Assembly: GCF_900112675.1 (NCBI RefSeq)
Contig: NZ_FOMQ01000005.1
Span: 310,001-374,000, forward strand
Source of the DNA: Paracidovorax konjaci
Lineage (GTDB): Bacteria > Pseudomonadota > Gammaproteobacteria > Burkholderiales > Burkholderiaceae_C
Reading direction: 5' to 3'
DNA length: 64,000 nt
Made by a program: the position numbers and the translations under genes. Below, one piece after another: positions 20,827 to 62,405 of this stretch. How positions within the stretch are numbered: position 1 is the stretch's first letter; every line of letters starts with the position of its first letter. The notes under the pieces were generated by a model. The model was not told the DNA's origin, made no database searches, and was given only the letters and a program-made list of their open reading frames with translations.

Positions 20827-20835
20827 GCTACTTTA

Positions 20836-20871
20836 TTGATAGCAAACTATTGAATGGATCCGGCGGCATGG
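20836..20871 (+). repeat. Repeated intergenic element, copy 1
   Basis: TTGATAGCAAACTATTGAAT (20836–20855) followed by GGATCCGGCGGCATGG. The same order recurs at 48777, 54996 and 57071. Read on the minus strand it contains TTTGCTATCAAT, similar to an extended –10 (TGnTATnnT), 10 nt before the hydrolase ATG, so it may act as a promoter here. Confidence 0.6.
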
Positions 20872-20936
20872 AGCACATTTCATGCCGAACCATGACTTTG
20901 GGGGCCTCGGGGCACCCGGGGTGCCGCCGGGCCGGC

Positions 20937-23103: not shown

Positions 23104-25067
23104 GCCGCGGCCTCCGCGGCAGGCTGGGCCGTGAAGCCCCGGAAACCGCCCTTCTTCAGATGCACCAGCAGAAGCGACACGGCGGCCGGCGTCACCCCCG
23201 AGATGCGCGAAGCCTGGCCCAACGTCTCGGGGCGGTGCTTCTGCAGCTTCTGGCGCACTTCGATGGAAAGCGCGGCCACCTGCATGTAATCCAGCTCGCC
23301 CGGCAGTTGCAGGGTCTCGTAGTGCGAGGCCCGCTGCACCTCGTCCTTCTGGCGGTCGATGTAGCCCGCGTACTTGGCGGCAATTTCTACCTGCTCGATC
23401 ACCGGAGCGCTCAGTTCACCGAGTGTTTCACGTGAAACATCCGCGGAGGCGTACTTGCCGCCATCCATGCCCATGAGGGCAGCGTAGGTGACGTCCGGGC
23501 GGCGAAGCAGGTCGAAGAGGTTGTATTCGTGCTCGATGGCCTTGCCGAGTACGCGGGCGGATTCCTCGGCCGGCAGGATGCGCGGATTCACCCAGGTGGC
23601 CTTGAGGCGCTCGGTCTCCCGCGCCACGGCATCGCGTTTGCGGCTGAAGGCGTCCCAGCGTGCATCGTCCACCAGGCCCATGCGGCGGCCGGCTTCCGTC
23701 AGGCGCATGTCGGCGTTGTCTTCGCGCAGCTGGAGCCGGAACTCCGCCCGGCTCGTGAACATGCGGTAGGGCTCGGTCACGCCCTTGGTGATGAGGTCGT
23801 CCACCAGCACGCCCAGGTAGGCCTCGCCACGGCCCGGCAGCCACGACGCCTCGCCGCGGCACTGCAGGGCGGCATTGATGCCCGCGAACAGGCCCTGTGC
23901 CGCAGCCTCTTCGTAGCCCGTGGTGCCGTTGATCTGGCCCGCGAAGAAGAGGCCCTGGATCTGCCGCGTCTCGAAACTGCTTTTGAGCGAGCGCGGGTCG
24001 AAATAGTCGTACTCGATGGCGTAGCCGGGCCGCAGGATGTGCGCGTTCTCCAGCCCGCGCATGGAGCGCACGAGGTCGTACTGCACGTCGAACGGCAGGC
24101 TCGTGGAGATGCCGTTGGGGTAGAACTCGTGCGTGGTGAGGCCCTCGGGCTCCAGGAAGATCTGGTGGCTGTCCTTGTCGGCGAAGCGGTTGATCTTGTC
24201 TTCCACGCTGGGGCAGTAGCGCGGCCCCACGCCTTCGATCTTGCCGGTGAACATGGGGCTGCGGTCGAACCCCGAGCGGATGATCTCGTGCGTGCGCTCG
24301 TTGGTGTGCGTGATCCAGCACGGCATCTGGCGCGGGTGCATGGCCGCGCTGCCCATGAAGCTGAACACCGGCACGGCGCCTTCGTTCACGCCGCCCGGCA
24401 TGCCGTCGCCGGGTTGCTCCTCGCACTGGCTGAAGTCGATGCTGCGGCCGTCGATGCGCGGCGGCGTGCCGGTCTTGAGCCGACCCTGCGGCAATTGCAG
24501 CTCTTTCAGGCGTGCCGACAGACTCACTGCCGGCGGATCGCCCGCGCGGCCGGCCGCGTAGTTGTTCAGGCCCACGTGGATCTTGCCGTCCAGGAAGGTG
24601 CCCGCCGTCAGCACCACCGTGCGCGACCGGAAGCGGATGCCCACCTGCGTGACCGCGCCCACGACGCGGTCGCCCTCCACCATCAGGTCGTCCACGGCCT
24701 GCTGGAAAAGCCACAGGTTGGGCTGGTTCTCCAGCATGCGGCGGATGGCCGCCTTGTAGAGCACCCGGTCGGCCTGCGCGCGCGTGGCGCGCACGGCCGG
24801 GCCCTTGGAGCTGTTGAGGATGCGGAACTGGATGCCGCCCTCGTCCGTGGCCAGTGCCATCGCGCCGCCCAGCGCATCCACCTCCTTCACGAGGTGGCCC
24901 TTCCCGATGCCGCCGATGCTGGGGTTGCAGCTCATCTGCCCCAACGTCTCGATGTTGTGGGTGAGCAGCAGGGTCTTGCTGCCCATGCGGGCGGCGGCCA
25001 AGGCGGCTTCGGTGCCGGCATGGCCTCCGCCGACAACGATCACATCAAATTCCTGGGGGTACAGCAT
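23100..25067 (-). CDS. mnmG: tRNA uridine-5-carboxymethylaminomethyl synthesis enzyme MnmG
   Basis: 655 residues, normal length. With MnmE it installs the cmnm5 modification on U34 of several tRNAs. The FAD motif is [20 protein letters not shown] at the N-terminus; [31 protein letters not shown], and the C-terminal [16 protein letters not shown] are family signatures. The ATG at 25067 is used because the FAD motif begins nine residues later; the longer frame has no homology. A perfect parS is embedded in its coding sequence (23424–23439). Confidence 0.97.
23424..23439. promoter_or_regulatory. Perfect parS site inside mnmG
   Basis: TGTTTCACGTGAAACA, an exact match to the universal chromosomal parS 16-mer and a perfect palindrome. 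It encodes VSRET in MnmG (within [10 protein letters not shown]). ParB from the same cluster should nucleate here. Confidence 0.93.
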
Positions 25068-25268
25068 GCAGTGGCTCCGGGGCCTCGAAAGAGGGAGCGG
25101 CCCGATAGGGACAGGGCGCAGGCCGGGCCGCCGGCGGGCGCCGTGCCCGCGCGATCCGGGGGAGGCGCGGGCGGGTAGGTTGGGAAAGCCCGCGATTTTC
25201 CCACTTCGGCCCCGGGCGCGCCACTGCCGCGGCCGATGGCCCTGCCTGCGGGCTGTCTTGGCGGGCGA

Positions 25269-25284
25269 TGTTTCACGTGGAACA
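25269..25284. promoter_or_regulatory. parS-like site between mnmG and the flavin reductase gene
   Basis: TGTTTCACGTGGAACA, one mismatch to the parS consensus, in the divergent intergenic region upstream of mnmG. Confidence 0.85.
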
Positions 25285-53811: not shown

Positions 53812-54813
53812 TCAGAACGGCGCGTCGTCGTCCTCCGCCCCGGCTGTGGCGGCAGCCGCAGCGGTTACTGCAGGCGCGGCAGGGGCATCGGCGCGGGCGC
53901 CCGGCACGGCGGCGGGGCCGTCCAGGCCGGTGCGCCCCTCGCCGCCCAGCGCCTCGATCAGGTCCGGGATCATCCTGGAGAGTTCGCCGGTGGCGATCGC
54001 CACGTCGGTGTCGAAGCCGCTGTCGTCCTGGCCCCGGCCCTCGAACACCGTGTCGAGGAACGACACCTTCTTGATCTGCAGCCCCTCGGTGAGCACGAAG
54101 GCGACGCGGTCGTCCCAGCTCATCGCGAGCTTGGTGGGCAGCTTGCCGGCGGCGATGTGCTCGCGGATCTCGTCGATGTCCAGCGGGTGGCGGGCGTAGC
54201 GCACCACGGCCTTGGATTCGTCGGCGCTCTTCAGCTCGCACTCGCGGTCCACGCTGAAGCCCACGGGGGGCTCCTGCTCCTTGAGCCAGTGCGCCATCGC
54301 GGCCTGCGGCGCGGTCTGCGTGTCCACCAGCGAGACCGACAGGCCCGGCAGCGCTTCCACCAGCAGGGTGACCACCTCGTCGGCGCGGCCCTGGCTGCCG
54401 GTGTCCAGCACCAGCAGGCGCGCCTCGGGATCGATCCAGACCCACATCGAGCCCTGCTTCGTGAAGGCCATGGGCAGCAGGTCGAGCTTGGCCTCGTCCT
54501 TCAGGTCGCGGGTTTCCTTCTTGCCGGGCTTGCGGCCGGTCTCGCGCTCGATGCGCGCGGCCTTCTCCTTGACCCGGCGCGCCAGCACCGAGCCCGGGAG
54601 CATCTTGGATTCGGCCATGAAGCGCAGGATCCAGTGCCCGCCCACCGATTCGGCGAGCGCGCCGTGGGCGTCGCCGCGCGGCGGGACCCAGCCGACGGAT
54701 TTTTCCTGGGTGGCGCCGCATTCCACGAACGGGGTACGGGCCAGGGCTTCTTCGAGTTGCGGCAGCTCCGCATGCCATTCGGCGATGCGGTAGACGATCA
54801 TGTTCTTGAACAC
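53812..54813 (-). CDS. rdgC: Recombination-associated protein RdgC
   Basis: 333 residues. RdgC is a ring-shaped dimer that coats DNA and restrains RecA. The start is GTG at 54813, giving the family N-terminus (V)FKNMIVYRI, with AAGGAATC eight bases upstream; the ATG at 54801 is less likely. FVECGATQEKSVGWVPPR, LDIDEIREHIAAGKLPTKLA and WDDRVAFVLTEGLQIKKVSF are conserved. The last ~40 residues are an Ala/Pro/Asp tail. Confidence 0.95.
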   Translation of the reverse strand: MFKNMIVYRIAEWHAELPQLEEALARTPFVECGATQEKSVGWVPPRGDAHGALAESVGGHWILRFMAESKMLPGSVLARRVKEKAARIERETGRKPGKKETRDLKDEAKLDLLPMAFTKQGSMWVWIDPEARLLVLDTGSQGRADEVVTLLVEALPGLSVSLVDTQTAPQAAMAHWLKEQEPPVGFSVDRECELKSADESKAVVRYARHPLDIDEIREHIAAGKLPTKLAMSWDDRVAFVLTEGLQIKKVSFLDTVFEGRGQDDSGFDTDVAIATGELSRMIPDLIEALGGEGRTGLDGPAAVPGARADAPAAPAVTAAAAATAGAEDDDAPF

Positions 54814-55199
54814 GGGGAGATTCCTTTGGTGCGTTGCGCCCGCCATGGGCAAAGGGCCCGGGCGCGCGCCGGCAGCGGTGCCGGCCGAGGGCCGCCATTG
54901 TCGTTGCTGCACGCGGCCCGCTGCCGGCCCGGGGCCGCCCGGGCGGCCCGGGCGGCCCGGCGCGGGGGGCTTTTCTCCCCGATCGCTCCTGATTCAATAG
55001 CAAACTATTCAATGGAATCGGCGGCATGGTGCTCGCCCGGGCCCCAATCGCTCCGGCAGCGCAACAAAACCCCGCAACAACTTTACACAGCCATACGCAC
55101 CCCTCATGGGGCCGAAACATGGCCCGCCGACACTGCCTTCAACCGCCGCACGAACCTACCGCGACGGCAACGCCCCCCGGGGCACGAAAGGACACCTCC
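54814..55199. other. Intergenic region between rdgC and the Spy-like gene
   Basis: 386 bases with no supported gene. A very GC-rich stretch (54900–54970) is followed by repeat copy 3 and an AT-richer segment near 55070–55090 that probably holds the promoter of the Spy-like gene. Confidence 0.6.
54996..55029 (+). repeat. Repeated intergenic element, copy 3
   Basis: AATAGCAAACTATTCAATGG followed by AATCGGCGGCATGG; near-identical to copies at 20836 and 57071. Reversed, it lies about 190 bases upstream of rdgC. Confidence 0.6.
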
Positions 55200-55790: not shown

Positions 55791-55919
55791 TGCCCACCAT
55801 GGGCGGCGGCCGCTGTTGACGCGGTTGCCGCCTACATGGAGGCTCCCAGACCCTGTCCTACAGTGGGTTACACGGATTGTGTAACCTCACGGTCGCGTAC
55901 AAAACTGGGAATTCACAAC

Positions 55920-56507
55920 ATGCCTCATCCATTCACGAAGCGCTCCCGCGCCGCCCTGGCGGCCCGGAGCGCTTTTTTCATGCTGGCCGCCACGGCCGCC
56001 CTCGGCGTCCAGGCACAGACCGCCAACGCCCCGACCCCTTCGGTCTACGTCCAGGGAGGCTGGGCCGAGCACCAGACCGACTCCGCCACCGTGGGCGTCA
56101 CCCTGCCCTGGGCTTCCTGGCGCAGCGAACTCCTGGGCCACGAGGTGCGCGGCTACTGGGACATCTACGCCAGCCGCTGGTCGTTCGATGCGGTGCCGGG
56201 CGGCGCGAGCCACACCACCCTGGTCGGCGTGACCCCCACCTTCCGCCTGCGCCCCGACAACGGCCGCTCGGCCTTCTTCTGGGAGGGCGGCGTCGGCGTG
56301 ACCTACATGGACAAGCGCTTCCACACGCCCGAGAAGGAATTCAGCACCCGCTACAACTTCGCTACCCACCTGGGCCTGGGCTACAGCCTGGGTGCCCGGC
56401 GCGAGCACGAAGTGATGCTGCGGGTGCAGCACCTCTCCAACGCCGGCATCAAGAAGCCCAACCCGGGCGACAACTTCCTCCAGGTGCGCTACGCGTACCA
56501 CTTCTGA
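55920..56507 (+). CDS. pagL: Lipid A 3-O-deacylase PagL
   Basis: 195 residues: signal peptide (ending near VQAQT) and an eight-stranded outer-membrane barrel ending in an aromatic residue (YAYHF). The catalytic pair lies in LRVQHLSNAGIKKPNPG (His and Ser as HxS), as in PagL. Removes the 3-O-acyl chain from lipid A, reducing endotoxicity. The start at 55920 begins the signal peptide. Monocistronic with its own terminator. Confidence 0.9.
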   Translation: MPHPFTKRSRAALAARSAFFMLAATAALGVQAQTANAPTPSVYVQGGWAEHQTDSATVGVTLPWASWRSELLGHEVRGYWDIYASRWSFDAVPGGASHTTLVGVTPTFRLRPDNGRSAFFWEGGVGVTYMDKRFHTPEKEFSTRYNFATHLGLGYSLGARREHEVMLRVQHLSNAGIKKPNPGDNFLQVRYAYHF

Positions 56508-56544
56508 CCCGCCCGGGCCCCTGCGCCCTGCCGCCTTCCCCTCC

Positions 56545-56569
56545 AGCCCCGCACCGCGGGGCTTTTTTG
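56545..56569 (+). terminator. Intrinsic terminator of pagL
   Basis: AGCCCCGC–acc–GCGGGGCT (56545–56563) followed by TTTTTG. Confidence 0.92.
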
Positions 56570-56760
56570 TGCCCGCTGCCATCGCCGCCCGCAGCCCCGC
56601 CTGTGGATAACGCTGGGGATGCTTGCGGAGCAACTGCGGGCTTATCCACAGCCGCGGGCCGATGGCCGAAGTTGTTATCGCCGGGCGCGCGCCGTCACCC
56701 GACCTTCCACCACAGGGTTCCGAGCACCCCAAGTCCGCGCCCGCATTGGGAAAAAGCCGC

Positions 56761-56836
56761 TTGTCCACACGAAGTGGGTGCCCTTACTACTATTCCTATG
56801 GATTGATAAAAGCCTTAGAGGAATAACAGAACATCC
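56761..56836 (+). other. Origin-like unwinding module 1 (DnaA box, 14-bp spacer, DnaA-trio, AT-rich)
   Basis: TTGTCCACA, 14 bases (56770–56783), TTACTACTATTCCTATGG, then GATTGATAAAAGCC. The preceding bases GGGAAAAAGCCGC match module 2 closely (56748 versus 57289). Confidence 0.72.
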
Positions 56837-57070
56837 GGACACCGGGGCGCCTTGGAGGGTTGGGAAAGGCGAAAGACACCTTCCCCCGGCCGGATGGAGA
56901 CGGCAGCGTCTGGCGGGGTGTGGAAAGGGAGGCGGTCTGGGGCGCGTTTGGCGTACACCGGCCGGGCTGGCGCGGGTACTTTCCCGGGCGCCCGCCGGCC
57001 TGGCCACGGAGTGCCGGGCCAGGCCGGCGGCCCCCACGACCGGGCGCGTTGCCGCCGTTCACTATATTTT

Positions 57071-57106
57071 TGATAGCAAACTATCGAATGGATCCGGCGG
57101 CATGGA
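57071..57106 (+). repeat. Repeated intergenic element, copy 4 (between the two origin-like modules)
   Basis: TGATAGCAAACTATCGAATG followed by GATCCGGCGGCATGGA. Almost identical to copy 1 near parA (one base different in the core). Confidence 0.6.
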
Positions 57107-57302
57107 GGGCTTTTCATCCCCAACCCCTGCGGCAGGCCCTTCCCAGGACAAGTCTGGGGACATTTCCCGCACAACCGGCCGCTTGTCCACAGCAGCGGAC
57201 CGTTTCCGGGATTTGTCCCCGCCGGATGGACAGCGGCAGCCCCCACCCACCCACAGGGTTGGCACACAGCCAAGTCCCTTGTCGCGCAACGGAAAAATCC
57301 GG

Positions 57303-57374
57303 TTGTCCACAGAACGGGGCGGTGCTTACTACTACGACTATGTTTTTATAAAGACATCAAGAAGAAAACAGGAG
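57303..57374 (+). other. Origin-like unwinding module 2
   Basis: TTGTCCACA, 14 bases (57312–57325), TTACTACTACGACTATG, then TTTTTATAAAGACATCAAG. Same spacing and order as module 1, 542 bp away. Confidence 0.72.
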
Positions 57375-57646
57375 AAGAGCGCCGGGGCATCCGTCCGGGC
57401 AGGACGGGCATGCATCCGCGTCGCCGGGCAGACAGGGGAATCCCAGGGGATCGGTGCCACGGGATGGGCCAGAGGCCTGGAGATCCACGCGGCGCTTCTG
57501 CAGGGCATGGGAGGGCCGTGGAGGGCCTGACAAGCGCTGCCTGAGGGGGGGCAGTGGGGCGGAGGGGTTCGGCCCTGGACGGCGCTCTGAGGCGGCGGGC
57601 CAGGCCCCGGCTTGCCCGCGCGGCCGGGCCAGGCCCCGTCAGGCGG

Positions 57647-60600
57647 TCAGGCCGCAGGCTGCCGGGCGTCCGCCAGGAAGGTTTCGAGGGCCGCCACGGG
57701 CAGCGGCCGGCTGAAGAAGTAGCCCTGGTAGGCGAGGCAGCCCGCGCGCTCCAGCCGCTCGCGCTGCTCGGCGGTCTCCACGCCCTCGGCGATCACGTCC
57801 AGCCCGAGGCTGCGCGAGAGCGCGATGATCGTGTCCACGATGGCCGCGTCGTTCGGGTCGGTCAGCAGGTCGCGCACGAAGCTCTGGTCGATCTTGAGCT
57901 GGTCGAGCGGCATGCGCTTGAGGTAGCTGAGCGACGAGTAACCGGTGCCGAAGTCGTCCAGCGAGAAGCCCACGCCGTGCGCGCGCAGCGCCGACATGGT
58001 GGCGATGGTGGTTTCCATGTCCTCGACGAACAGGCTCTCGGTGAGTTCGAGCTTGAGGCGGGCGGCGGGCGCCCCGGTCATGGCGATGGCGCGCGCCACG
58101 TCGTCCACGAAGGCCTCGTGGTGGAACTGCCGCGAACTCACGTTCACCGCCATGCTGAGGTGCGCCCGGCCGGGCTCGCCCTGCCAGCGCGCGAGCTGGG
58201 CGCAGGCCGTGTGCAGCACCCAGCGGCCCAGCGGCAGCACGAGGCCGGTCTCCTCGGCCAGCGGGATGAATTCGCCGGGCGAGACCATGCCGCGCTGCGG
58301 ATGCGGCCAGCGCACCAGCGCCTCGACGCCGGTGACGCGGCCCTGGTGGTCCACCTGCGGCTGGTAGTGCAGCGCGAACTGCTCGCGCGCCAGGGCGGTG
58401 CGCAGGTCGTTTTCCAGCTCGGCGCGCGCCGTGACCACGGCCTGCATGCCCGGGTCGAAGAAGCGCAGCGTGTTGCGGCCCGCGGTCTTGGCCTGGTACA
58501 TGGCCAGGTCGGCCTGCTTGAGCAGCTCGCCCACGGTGGTGGCGCGCGCATCGCTGAACGGCGCCACGCCGATGCTGGGCGTGCTGCGGTAGTGGTAGCC
58601 CTGCAGCACGTAGGGCGTGGCCAGCACCGCCAGGATCTTCTCGCCCACGGTGCGGGCGCTCATGGCCAGCTCTTCGGGGCGCGCGCTCAGGGCTTCGATC
58701 ATCACCACGAACTCGTCGCCGCCCAGGCGGGCCACGGTGTCCACCGAGCGCACGCAGGTGTTCAGGCGCGCGGCCACCTGCTGCAGCAGCACGTCGCCCT
58801 GGTCGTGGCCCAGGGTGTCGTTGAGGGTCTTGAAGTTGTCCAGGTCGATGAACAGCAGCGCGCCGCCCTGGCGGCGCCGCTGCGCCGTGGCCAGCGCCTG
58901 GCGCATGCGGTCCATGAGCAGCATGCGGTTGGGCAGGCCGGTGAGCGAGTCGTAGAACGCGAGCCGCTGGATCTCGCGCTCGGTGGCCTTGCGCTGCCCG
59001 ATGTCGGTGTTGATCGCGAGGATGGCGTCCGGCTGGCCCTGCTCGCCCTTCACGAGCGTCCAGCGGCCCTCCACGTCCAGGCGGCGCCCGTCGCGGTGGA
59101 ACTGCACGATCTCGCCGGTCCACTCGCCCTGCTTGCGCGTCGTGCCGGTCGCGCGCAGGAATTCCTGCGTGTCCTGGTAGAGCAGCGTGGCGATGGACTG
59201 GCCGGTCGCCTCCTCGCGCTTCCACCCGTAGAGCCGCTCGGCGCCTTCGTTCCAGAAGGTGATGCGGTGGTCGAGGTCGCGCACGATGATCGCGTCGCGC
59301 GCCTTGTCCAGCAGCGAGGCCTGGCGCCGGATGTGCGCGTCCGAGGCCTGGCGCGCCATCTCGGCGGCGGCCCGCGCCGCGAAGATGCGCAGCGTGGAAA
59401 CCACCATGCCCGGCTGCTGCAGGGGCTCGCGGAAGACGACGAAGATCAGCCCGATGGCCCGGCCTTCGGTGTCGCGCAGCTGCAGGCCCACGTAGGCCTG
59501 CGCGCCCAGCCGCGCCACGGGCGAGCTGGGGTACAGCTCGGCGATGCCGTGCGGTATGACGCATTCGGTCTCGTTCACGAGGCGCAGGCTCGGTGTGCCT
59601 TCGAGCCCGTATTCGGCGTTGGGCTGGACCACGCCCTCCTCCACGCGCGAGAGCGTCACCGCGCGCGGCAATTGCCCCGCCGGCTGCGGCAGCAGCCGCG
59701 TGACGCAGCCGGCCTGTGCGCCCAGCGCGTCGCACATGTGGCTGGCGAGCTGCTTGAAGAACTGGGTGCCGGTGCTGGCCGACACGGCGGCCGCGGCCTT
59801 GAGCACCACGGCCTGCAGGCGCTGCTGGTCCTGGCGCGTGCGCAAGCTGCCCAGCCCGAAGGCGATGTCGTTGGCGAGCTGCTGGAGCAGCTCGGCCTCT
59901 TCGGCGCCGGTCTCCAGCACCGTCTCTGGGTAGAGGGTGAGCAGGCCGAACACCTGCTCGGCATCGCGCAGCGGCAGGCTGATGACGGCCGGCAGGCCCA
60001 GCTGCGCGAGCGGCCGCGCCCACACGTCGGCCAGGGGCGCGCGCTGCACGTCGTGCACGATCACGGGCCGGCCGCTGCGCAGCGCCTCGCCCGAGGGGCC
60101 GGGGCTGTGCGGCGTCCAGGGCGCGCCCGGGGCGCCGATGGGGCGCAATGTTTCCACGCCCACGGTGGTGAGGCCCGACCAGGCCACGGGCTCGATGCTC
60201 TGGCGCTCGGCGCCCGCGGCGTTCCAGCGGCGCACCATGCCCACCCAGGCGCTGCGGAACCCGCCCACCTCGCGGGCGATGCGGCACACCTCCGAGAGCA
60301 GCGCCGCCTCGCCGGTGGCGCGCACCAGGGCCTCGTTGCAGGCGCTCAGCAGCCGCTGCACGGTGCCCACGCGCGCCAGTTCGCGCTCCACGCGCATGCG
60401 CTGCGTCACGTCGGTGGCCAGCACCTGGCGAGCCGACAGGCCATTGAAGGTGATGTCGCCCGCGTACACCTCCATGTCGATGAAGGTGCCGTCCTTCTTG
60501 ACGTGGCGGCGGTGGACCGCGTCGCGCCGCACGCCGGGCGCCAGCGCGCGCGCCTCGAGCTCGTTGGCGGCCCGGTCCTCCTCGGGCCAGAACTGCACGG

Positions 60601-62161
60601 TGGTCATGCGCAGCAGCTCGGCCTCGCTGTAGCCGTAATGGCGCACCATCGCCCGGTTCACGGCCAGGATGCGCAGGCTGCCGCGCTCGTAGACCCACAT
60701 GGGCTGGGGATGGGCATCGAAGAGCGCGCGGTACTGCTGCTCGGAAGCGCTCAGCTGCGCGGCATAGCTGCGCAGCTGCAGCATCGCGCCCAGCGATTCG
60801 GCCAGGATCTGCACATAGGCCACGTGGCGCTGCGAGAAGGTGAACAGCGGATCGGCGTTCACCTTGAGCATGCCCAGCACGGTCTCGCCCGCGCGCAGCG
60901 GTGCGGCGACGAAGGACAGCGCACCGTGCCGGCCGCCGTCGGTGGCCATCGAGGCATGGGCCAGCGAATGCTTGCCGTCCCCGTGGAGGACGGTCTCGCC
61001 CGATTCGAGCTGGTGCCACAGCGGGTAGCCCAGCACGGGGCGGATCTCGTGCAGCGGGGCCGCGTGGCGGCCGATGCTCGCGCGCACGCGAAGCCGGTCG
61101 CCCTCGCGCAGCACCACCATCGCGCCGTGGGCATCGGCCAGGTCCATGGCCGTGCGCGCCACCAGCTGCAGCACCTCGTCCAGAGGCAGGTCGGGCGCGC
61201 TCATGCGCTGCTGCACGCGCACCAGCTCGGCATGGGCGCTCGCGTCGCGCTGCGCCTGCAGCGCGCTCTGCTTCTGGGCGCTGATGTCGGTCATGCCGCC
61301 CACCATGCGCATGGCCAGGCCCTCGTCGTCGCGGATCACGAATCCGCGGTCGCGCACCCAGGCATAGCTGCCGTCCTGGCGGCGGAAGCGGTATTCGTCG
61401 GTCCAGTGGCGCGCCGTGCCCTCGATGGCCGCATGGATGCCCTCCAGCACCATGTCGCTGTCGTCGGGGTGCAGGCGCTGGGTCCAGGAGGTGCTGTCGT
61501 GCGGCAGCGTCTGCAGCGGCACGCCGAAGAGCGTCTCCATGCCCTCGTTCCACCACATCGAATCGTCGGTGAGGTTCCAGTCCCAGATCGCATCGGCCGT
61601 GGCGCGCGCCACGAGGTGGAAGCGCTCCTCGGACAGCGCGCGGTCCTGCGCGCGGCGGGCCATGCTGCGGCGCTGGCGGCGCACTTCCAGCAGCGCCATC
61701 GCCTGGCTGGCGATGGCCTGCAGGGCTTCGAGCTGTGCCCCCTGCAGGGCACGCGGGGAGGTGTCCATCACCACCACGGCGCCCAGCACCAGCCCTTCGG
61801 CGGTGGCGAGCGGCATGCAGGCGGCCATGCGCACGCGGGGCGGCCCCTGCACCAGCGGATGGTCGCGCAGCACGGGGTGGGTGCTCGCGTCCTGCACCTG
61901 CGCCAGCCGGCCGTCCTGCGCCAGCGCGCACAGCGCATGCGCGCCGGCGAGGTGCTGCAGCGACGCGACCGGCATGCCGACGCTGGCCTTGAACCACTCG
62001 CGGTCGGCGTCCACGAAGCCGATGGCCGCCAGCGGCGCGCCGCACAGATGCGCGGCCAGCCGGGCGAGCTGGTCGAAAGACTCTTCGGTGGCGGTGTCGA
62101 GGACGGCGCACGCATGCAGCGCGTCCAGGCGCCGGCAGACCGTGTCCGAACGGGAGCCCAT
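57647..62161 (-). CDS. Multi-sensor GGDEF/EAL cyclic-di-GMP protein
   Basis: About 1504 residues from the ATG at 62161 (a GTG at 62281 would add 40 Pro/Ala-rich residues). Domain order by eye: GAF (about 10–150), PAS (175–305, WDWNLTDDSMWWNEGME), GAF (320–460), PAS (485–615), GAF (620–765), GAF (790–945), PAS (960–1080, ITFWNEGAERLYGW), GGDEF (1085–1245; RLGGDEFVVM intact) and EAL (1260–1504; GVEALVRWPHP, LKLELTESLFVEDMET, DDFGTGYSSLSYLK). Both catalytic motifs look complete, so it could make and break c-di-GMP. No membrane helices, so it is cytosolic. Single gene next to the origin-like region. Confidence 0.92.
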   Translation of the reverse strand: MGSRSDTVCRRLDALHACAVLDTATEESFDQLARLAAHLCGAPLAAIGFVDADREWFKASVGMPVASLQHLAGAHALCALAQDGRLAQVQDASTHPVLRDHPLVQGPPRVRMAACMPLATAEGLVLGAVVVMDTSPRALQGAQLEALQAIASQAMALLEVRRQRRSMARRAQDRALSEERFHLVARATADAIWDWNLTDDSMWWNEGMETLFGVPLQTLPHDSTSWTQRLHPDDSDMVLEGIHAAIEGTARHWTDEYRFRRQDGSYAWVRDRGFVIRDDEGLAMRMVGGMTDISAQKQSALQAQRDASAHAELVRVQQRMSAPDLPLDEVLQLVARTAMDLADAHGAMVVLREGDRLRVRASIGRHAAPLHEIRPVLGYPLWHQLESGETVLHGDGKHSLAHASMATDGGRHGALSFVAAPLRAGETVLGMLKVNADPLFTFSQRHVAYVQILAESLGAMLQLRSYAAQLSASEQQYRALFDAHPQPMWVYERGSLRILAVNRAMVRHYGYSEAELLRMTTVQFWPEEDRAANELEARALAPGVRRDAVHRRHVKKDGTFIDMEVYAGDITFNGLSARQVLATDVTQRMRVERELARVGTVQRLLSACNEALVRATGEAALLSEVCRIAREVGGFRSAWVGMVRRWNAAGAERQSIEPVAWSGLTTVGVETLRPIGAPGAPWTPHSPGPSGEALRSGRPVIVHDVQRAPLADVWARPLAQLGLPAVISLPLRDAEQVFGLLTLYPETVLETGAEEAELLQQLANDIAFGLGSLRTRQDQQRLQAVVLKAAAAVSASTGTQFFKQLASHMCDALGAQAGCVTRLLPQPAGQLPRAVTLSRVEEGVVQPNAEYGLEGTPSLRLVNETECVIPHGIAELYPSSPVARLGAQAYVGLQLRDTEGRAIGLIFVVFREPLQQPGMVVSTLRIFAARAAAEMARQASDAHIRRQASLLDKARDAIIVRDLDHRITFWNEGAERLYGWKREEATGQSIATLLYQDTQEFLRATGTTRKQGEWTGEIVQFHRDGRRLDVEGRWTLVKGEQGQPDAILAINTDIGQRKATEREIQRLAFYDSLTGLPNRMLLMDRMRQALATAQRRRQGGALLFIDLDNFKTLNDTLGHDQGDVLLQQVAARLNTCVRSVDTVARLGGDEFVVMIEALSARPEELAMSARTVGEKILAVLATPYVLQGYHYRSTPSIGVAPFSDARATTVGELLKQADLAMYQAKTAGRNTLRFFDPGMQAVVTARAELENDLRTALAREQFALHYQPQVDHQGRVTGVEALVRWPHPQRGMVSPGEFIPLAEETGLVLPLGRWVLHTACAQLARWQGEPGRAHLSMAVNVSSRQFHHEAFVDDVARAIAMTGAPAARLKLELTESLFVEDMETTIATMSALRAHGVGFSLDDFGTGYSSLSYLKRMPLDQLKIDQSFVRDLLTDPNDAAIVDTIIALSRSLGLDVIAEGVETAEQRERLERAGCLAYQGYFFSRPLPVAALETFLADARQPAA

Positions 62162-62405
62162 GGTCAGTGCACCGGCCCGCCGCACGGGGTCCGGCGCCCC
62201 GGGCGGGGCGGTGTCGGAAGCAGTGGCGGCGGCACCTGCATGGTTGGGCGAGGACGGGGTGGGGTGGCGTGGACGCGCCACCCGTGCCGGGGCAGCACGG
62301 AAAGGCGCGGATGTTTCCGAATGCTACACCGGCCCACCCGCTGACCGGTTCCACGAAAACGTGGAATCCGCCCAGAAAACAACAGCCGGGCGACCGGGGC
62401 GCGCT

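Follow-up and report, generated by a model that had tools for sequence, protein, structure and literature searches.

Where replication of the chromosome starts in Paracidovorax konjaci and its relatives among the Comamonadaceae is a question raised by two short, similar DnaA-box clusters located in one intergenic region, at a distance from dnaA. We consider it very probable that this region is the chromosomal oriC of this Paracidovorax-like member of the Comamonadaceae and that it comprises two complete, tandem, diverged modules for DnaA-dependent unwinding. What the analysis shows directly is the sequence and geometry of the modules, their conservation and synteny, where they lie with respect to dnaA, and the GC skew; that DnaA binds there, that either module unwinds, that replication initiates, and that having two modules is an advantage are inferred from these. 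The region thus provides a large family of environmental and plant-associated bacteria, several records of which are numbered from dnaA, with a concrete oriC candidate, and reveals a conserved case of duplicated complete unwinding modules. It bears on the rule of one start site per bacterial chromosome and makes two matters testable now, namely the natural use of more than one origin unit per chromosome and the way in which an origin becomes separate from dnaA.

The window, by which we mean the whole 64,000-nt stretch of DNA analyzed, belongs to a 5.08-Mb genome that comprises 36 contigs. Each of the two sites is a module of about 240 bp; the modules are paralogous, arranged in tandem in the same orientation, and diverged. 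In module A (56597..56833, plus strand; profile match E 5.5e-59), an inverted box and boxes 1 and 2 are followed by a 14-nt spacer, a DnaA-trio, and an AT-rich segment; module B (57138..57375, plus strand; E 3.9e-60) is its paralogue; the whole-module profile was trained on congeneric modules, A and B of the window among them. In module A, the box scan located an inverted DnaA box TTATCCACA (56602..56610, minus strand), 40 bp from box 1 (TTATCCACA, 56642..56650, plus strand), which is found 119 bp upstream of box 2 (TTGTCCACA, 56761..56769, plus strand). Box 2 stands 14 nt ahead of the trio run TTACTACTA (56784..56792, plus strand by motif scan; 3'-AATGATGAT-5' on the opposite strand), followed by a putative unwinding segment with 66% AT (56793..56833, plus strand). 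In module B, all on the plus strand, box 1 (TTGTCCACA, 57183..57191) is located 120 bp upstream of box 2 (TTGTCCACA, 57303..57311), which again precedes by 14 nt the trio run TTACTACTA (57326..57334) and a putative unwinding segment with 68% AT (57335..57375). The box scan of the 64-kb window found no consensus inverted box in module B. Further conserved blocks between the boxes align in each copy.

The five near-consensus DnaA boxes occupy 710 bp between pagL on one side and the EAL gene on the other. Allowing up to one mismatch on both strands, TTATCCACA has seven matches in the 64-kb window, five of them within 56602-57311, and TTACTACTA or its complement occurs in the window exactly twice (56784 and 57326), each time 14 bases after a TTGTCCACA box. 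The 41-nt segments behind the trios are in about the top 0.15% of the window's 41-mers for AT content. The initial annotation had proposed two duplicated units composed of a box, 14 bases, a trio run, and an AT-rich segment, with three more DnaA boxes nearby. The units are real, as confirmed by the box and trio scan and by the 300 simulations described below, and the additional boxes are those at 56602 and 56642 (TTATCCACA) and 57183 (TTGTCCACA); the duplication was likewise correctly recognized, but its extent was understated, the repeated unit being the whole module of about 240 bp according to the profile.

This organization recalls the basal unwinding system (BUS) of Bacillus subtilis, composed of a DnaA box, a spacer, and a DnaA-trio, which according to the relevant survey is broadly conserved and was reconstituted for six further species (PMC8287927). 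The survey gives a spacer peak around 10-13 with a limit of 16, and at least three trios (3'-NAN-5'), 3'-GAT-5' being the most frequent (PMC8287927). In both modules of the window the bottom-strand trios are AAT-GAT-GAT, and both conform to the BUS rule of a DnaA box at most 16 bp from at least three trios. The modules resemble the BUS in having a box, a spacer (14 nt in the window), and at least three trios, and differ from it in that there are two units per origin region, a second box 119 or 120 bp upstream, and a distant dnaA. As described in the part of the survey available, candidates were filtered to a single one in more than 99% of genomes, so that a twin would not appear there (PMC8287927).

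Several other readings of the region were examined and rejected. Chance is excluded by 300 first-order Markov simulations of the window, in none of which a TTNTNCACA box occurred with TTACTACTA at 8-18 nt, and also by conservation in relatives; the same simulations gave at most one TTATCCACA/TTGTCCACA box per 710 bp. A structured RNA found no support in Rfam (no matches up to E 0.1 for 56400-57700), nor did a coding function in Pfam, the three mechanical open reading frames across the region, of at most 303 aa, giving no matches up to E 0.01. A promoter-rich regulatory region was rejected as no sigma-70-like promoters were found in the module region; one terminator-like hairpin (56545-56563) is present behind pagL, not above shuffle level. 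A mobile copy is contradicted by the gene neighbors of the modules, which are constant within the genus, and by the modules of G020, a member of another genus of the family, which share only 48- and 85-bp similarities without long flanking repeats.

On the left, the modules are accompanied by rdgC (53812..54912, minus strand; PF04381) and a pagL-like gene of the lipid A deacylase family (55836..56507, plus strand; PF09411), and on the right by a gene encoding a PAS/GAF/GGDEF/EAL protein (57647..62281, minus strand; domain matches). In congeners, rdgC, an LTXXQ-family gene, and pagL on the left and the GGDEF/EAL gene on the right were found wherever the stretch reached them, and the same neighbors recur in part at Acidovorax, Simplicispira, Curvibacter, Comamonas, and Delftia loci. 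As a separate observation, rdgC adjoins this origin region at many loci. A parAB/parS/mnmG block about 32 kb away had been cited in favor of an origin-proximal location. MnmG, RsmG, and ParA-type proteins are indeed encoded at 20.9-25.4 kb of the window, and two parS-like sites found by consensus scan (23424, TGTTTCACGTGAAACA, and 25269, TGTTTCACGTGGAACA; together 23424..25284, no strand assigned) are located within this mnmG-rsmG-parA block, 31-33 kb from the modules; parB, however, was not found among the window ORFs tested.

The initial annotation had made conservation of the module in relatives a condition of its reading, and both modules are present in all 17 congeneric genomes, the window's included, with a 14-nt spacer in every module and an inter-module gap of 326-1555 bp. 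A DNA search of 40 relatives matched 21, including 16 of 16 congeners and five of 24 genera, one of the latter (G031) by a borderline 32-base match, and part of these matches correspond to a dispersed repeat located between the modules. With alignment rows chosen at no more than two trio mismatches, under which every genome gave both modules, the commonest base of a column made up on average a share of 0.95 in the trio of module A and 0.99 in that of module B; the corresponding values were 0.71 and 0.70 for the sequence separating the boxes, and 0.59 and 0.68 for the spacer. The AT-rich segment is maintained in both copies within the genus. Strict maintenance does not extend to every box, since five congeners (G008, G009, G012, G013, and G015) depart from the consensus at box 1 of module A, and G012 does so in module B as well.

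Beyond the genus, a sequence-only model of the 74-nt core, built from 36 rows, matches 264 of 399 genomes of the family, at least 83 of which carry two or three core matches (counted by hand with strict filters), and 13 of 200 genomes in an order-level draw, five inside the family and eight outside. Among 40 mostly complete genomes, 39 have a match at E up to 0.01, a proportion that is not to be read as a frequency, given that these genomes were largely pre-selected as earlier matches. Two or three modules occur in 25 of these 39 module-bearing genomes, and a single match at threshold in 14. Module spacing in this set ranges from 267 bp to 28.5 kb (15.0 kb for the G152 pair), and three pairs, those of G301, G340, and G398, are in opposite orientation. 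In short stretches, 18 of 22 expected modules could be read by a strict reader, 13 of them with the box pair at 118-119 bp and two, both from G151, with spacers of 11 and 15; the full-length profile recovered the remaining four (the first G330 copy, the second G205 copy, G112, and the G301 copy at dnaA).

The geometry of the module is also retained in copies that are far apart and inverted. In G340 and G398, where some 21 kb separates the two copies, both the 119-bp box pair and the 14-nt spacer are preserved, as they are in the inverted pairs of G193 (contig C1, 48934, minus strand, and 95518, plus strand; 46.6 kb apart) and G273 (C22, 58166, minus strand, and 68768, plus strand; 10.6 kb apart). 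Box 2 is TTACCCACA in three of the four G193 and G273 copies, and in one of the G193 copies the trio run is changed to CTATGACTA. In G020, three modules in the same orientation are spread over 29 kb (C1, 40049-69387; L269 and L270), and the raw skew minimum of the 200-kb stretch is located at most 0.2 kb from the first of them. Two further observations concern distribution. At a Glaciimonas immobilis locus (L085, 44-1080), three box-14-trio units occur within about 1 kb; Glaciimonas belongs to another family than Comamonadaceae, so that multiple units are not confined to the latter. A stretch labeled as an Akkermansia muciniphila MAG (L116) contains a Burkholderiales-type module, and its bin or label is probably wrong.

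The relationships of the copies were analyzed in a tree that included 66 modules of 33 loci. In the set comprising Acidovorax, Paracidovorax, Simplicispira lacusdiani, and Giesbergeria, 16 A copies form one group with support of 90/99, which is below the starred level. Modules A and B of the window join their respective Paracidovorax counterparts (100/98 and 99/95), and six A copies of Comamonas, Delftia, and a MAG form another group (100/98), while Curvibacter, Lampropedia, and Limnohabitans copies cluster by genus. Family-wide orthology of A and B was rejected, as the starred branches force at least five label changes, for which repeated duplication or homogenization across the family is needed. 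From these sequences, the duplication looks old in the Acidovorax, Paracidovorax, S. lacusdiani, and Giesbergeria set and looks repeated or homogenized elsewhere.

We propose that DnaA would bind the box pair (119 or 120 bp apart) in each module, module A offering an extra inverted box. From the trio-proximal box, DnaA would cross the 14-nt spacer and assemble into a filament along the 3'-(G/A)AT-5' repeats of a single strand, and this filament would open the AT-rich segment so that helicase can be loaded, in the manner of the B. subtilis basal unwinding system. Modules in the same orientation would engage the same strand, so that two of them would provide duplicated openings, serving as a back-up or making initiation more efficient, and not a separate opening for each fork. 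The argument about one module per fork need not hold everywhere, since the copies are inverted in some relatives.

A different view of the pair is that one module works and the other is a DnaA-titration or timing site, for which datA is the comparison system, or a relic that no longer opens; we regard this as a real possibility, if somewhat short of an even chance. It is in keeping with the 14 module-bearing genomes in which a single match was found at threshold and with the missing consensus inverted box of the window's module B. It also has a parallel in Pseudomonas aeruginosa, in which, according to a secondary account, only one of two candidate origins is essential (cited in Gao 2015, PMC4403523). 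Titration, however, needs boxes only, and that both copies have retained the trio speaks against a purely titrating role. This retention was assessed outside the genus on modules that had not been chosen for their trios. For this purpose, 109 named stretches obtained with the exact box-14-trio pattern were rescanned with the module profile, which matched 80 of them, 44 with at least two matches, some partial; the 29 stretches without a match are all labeled outside Burkholderiales. Thirty-four of the profile matches had not been selected by the pattern, and exclusion of four congeners (L035, L066, L081, and L125) left 30 outside the genus. Three trios are present in 24 of these, two in five, and one in a single, partial match, giving 29 of 30 with at least two trios, in a test that is not wholly independent because the module profile itself contains the trio. 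The spacer is 14 nt in 25 of the 29 non-genus modules having at least two trios. Among controls, two trios were found in eight of 600 shuffled segments and two of 503 other segments of the same loci, and three trios in none. The 14-nt spacing preserved in second copies, the AT-rich segment kept in both copies within the genus, and the single group formed by the A copies of the Acidovorax-containing set likewise count against only one module being functional.

The two unwinding elements might also be functional only jointly, as parts of a single compound origin. The close spacing (326-1555 bp) and shared orientation of the modules in the genus are what such an arrangement would look like, and yet in other genera the same geometry occurs at distances of 3.3-46.6 kb, sometimes inverted (G340, G398, G193, and G273), and genomes with one detected module indicate that close cooperation is not required everywhere. 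A compound origin of this kind appears rather unlikely to us. More speculative still, and in our judgment doubtful, is the extension of our preferred reading of two complete modules to the proposal that chromosomes of the family often carry two or three autonomous complete origins, each able to fire and forming an interchangeable cluster that has strayed from dnaA, in tandem in Paracidovorax and its relatives and elsewhere dispersed over 3-47 kb in either orientation.

The position of the modules relative to dnaA bears on the oriC reading itself. In eight congeners with both on one contig, the twin is located 28-129 kb from dnaA; in the window's genome and in G015, the two are on different contigs. 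A profile scan of 13 dnaA loci from the window's genome and its relatives found a module in none; five of these loci are truncated by the start of the record, and for all of these but G013 other stretches supplied the wrapped side. In about 2.8 Mb of stretches scanned with the profile, no module was detected outside origin-proximal clusters. In the seven genomes tabulated, near-consensus boxes close to dnaA number three in G023 and one in each of the others. In 31 of the 39 module-bearing genomes, dnaA is separated from the closest module by more than 10 kb, the largest distances being about 300 kb in G260, about 260 kb in G104, and about 158 kb in G398; the distance is within 1.5 kb in eight (G112, G130, G164, G205, G301, G088, G152, and G284), the distance being 0.6 kb in G152 and 0.8 kb in G284. 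A site away from dnaA, which the initial annotation had considered unusual for this group, is thus the commoner state among the module-bearing genomes examined. Graded states are observed across the family, from a module beside dnaA, single or twin, through a distant tandem twin, to two or three copies kilobases apart.

GC skew was examined in nine relatives by comparing the twin and dnaA as a single switch point in raw 1-kb bins. The fit favors the twin in nine of nine, with a summed log-likelihood difference of 51.5, a sum that is no formal test because skew bins are autocorrelated. The sign of the interval between twin and dnaA is as expected for an origin at the twin in eight of nine (G019 is the exception), with bootstrap intervals clear of zero in G007 and G020 alone. 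The cumulative skew minimum, by which the initial annotation had proposed to judge the site, is nearer the twin in four genomes (G007, G003, G016, and G020) and nearer dnaA in five (G010, G023, G019, G008, and G005). The outcome that would have spoken against the initial annotation, a minimum clearly elsewhere together with no conservation of the module in relatives, was not observed. In the gene-strand-corrected third-position analysis, the twin is better than dnaA in eight of nine genomes, G008 excepted; the optimum is elsewhere in most, the support interval holding the twin in three of nine and dnaA in one of nine, and the best fit for G020 is wrong in sign. Sparse sampling of skew along the G007 chromosome gave predominantly positive values as far as 2.4 Mb and predominantly negative ones beginning at 2.9 Mb. 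The polarity of GGGNAGGG as a finer origin marker was uninformative, with too few sites around the origin. Taken together, skew places the region as origin-proximal and fits the twin better than dnaA, at a resolution that is coarse and not base-accurate.

That the origin is located at dnaA, as in the textbook arrangement, and that the twin is a conserved DnaA-binding cluster with another purpose is highly improbable: the eight genomes with a module within 1.5 kb of dnaA attest to such an arrangement in the family, and the raw minimum favors it in five of nine genomes, but the 13 dnaA loci without a module, the small number of near-consensus boxes close to dnaA in the seven genomes tabulated, and the single-switch fits all oppose it. 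The initial annotation had left open whether the site is the chromosomal oriC or a second DnaA-titration or origin site, and the completeness of both modules in 17 of 17 genomes, together with the dnaA loci and the skew switch just described, favors oriC over a mere titration site.

In the bipartite origins of B. subtilis and Helicobacter pylori, box clusters flank dnaA and there is one unwinding element. The two species are named as cases of this type (PMC4403523), and the region described here is similar to theirs in having two DnaA-box clusters in one origin region. In contrast to them, each of the window's clusters has its own trio and AT-rich segment, and neither adjoins dnaA; by the criterion of box clusters flanking dnaA, neither the window's twin nor the twins of eight congeners are of the bipartite type. 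Within the same order, Burkholderiales, the predicted origin of Cupriavidus metallidurans CH34 chromosome 1 is characterized, in the part of the report available, by a GC-skew switch some 90 kb away from dnaA and, ahead of it, a 213-nt region in which three perfect DnaA boxes occur (PMC2864759). Compared by description only, and as far as this part of the report goes, the 213-nt region resembles one module of the window; the description there mentions neither trios nor a second complete module (PMC2864759). Putative double origins, at hemE and dnaA 291 kb apart, were proposed in silico for Ralstonia pickettii 12D, one of several such cases (PMC4403523), which likewise amounts to a two-origin proposal for one chromosome in Burkholderiales; in that proposal, which relied on box counts and Z-curves, the two sites adjoin different genes, and the modules described here are paralogous and conserved across genera. 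The possibility that multiple origins occur is also acknowledged in the available part of the Ori-Finder 2022 description (PMC10225481). Among the matches listed in a search of the open-licence literature, there was no description of a twin module in Comamonadaceae.

The dispersed repeat between the modules (57056-57133) is about 50-80 bp long and includes a short palindrome, GATAGCAAACTATC. Another copy is present near 20833-20891 of the window, and, among the matches listed, the repeat occurs in at least 12 further places in the same genome and in others in G010 and G011.
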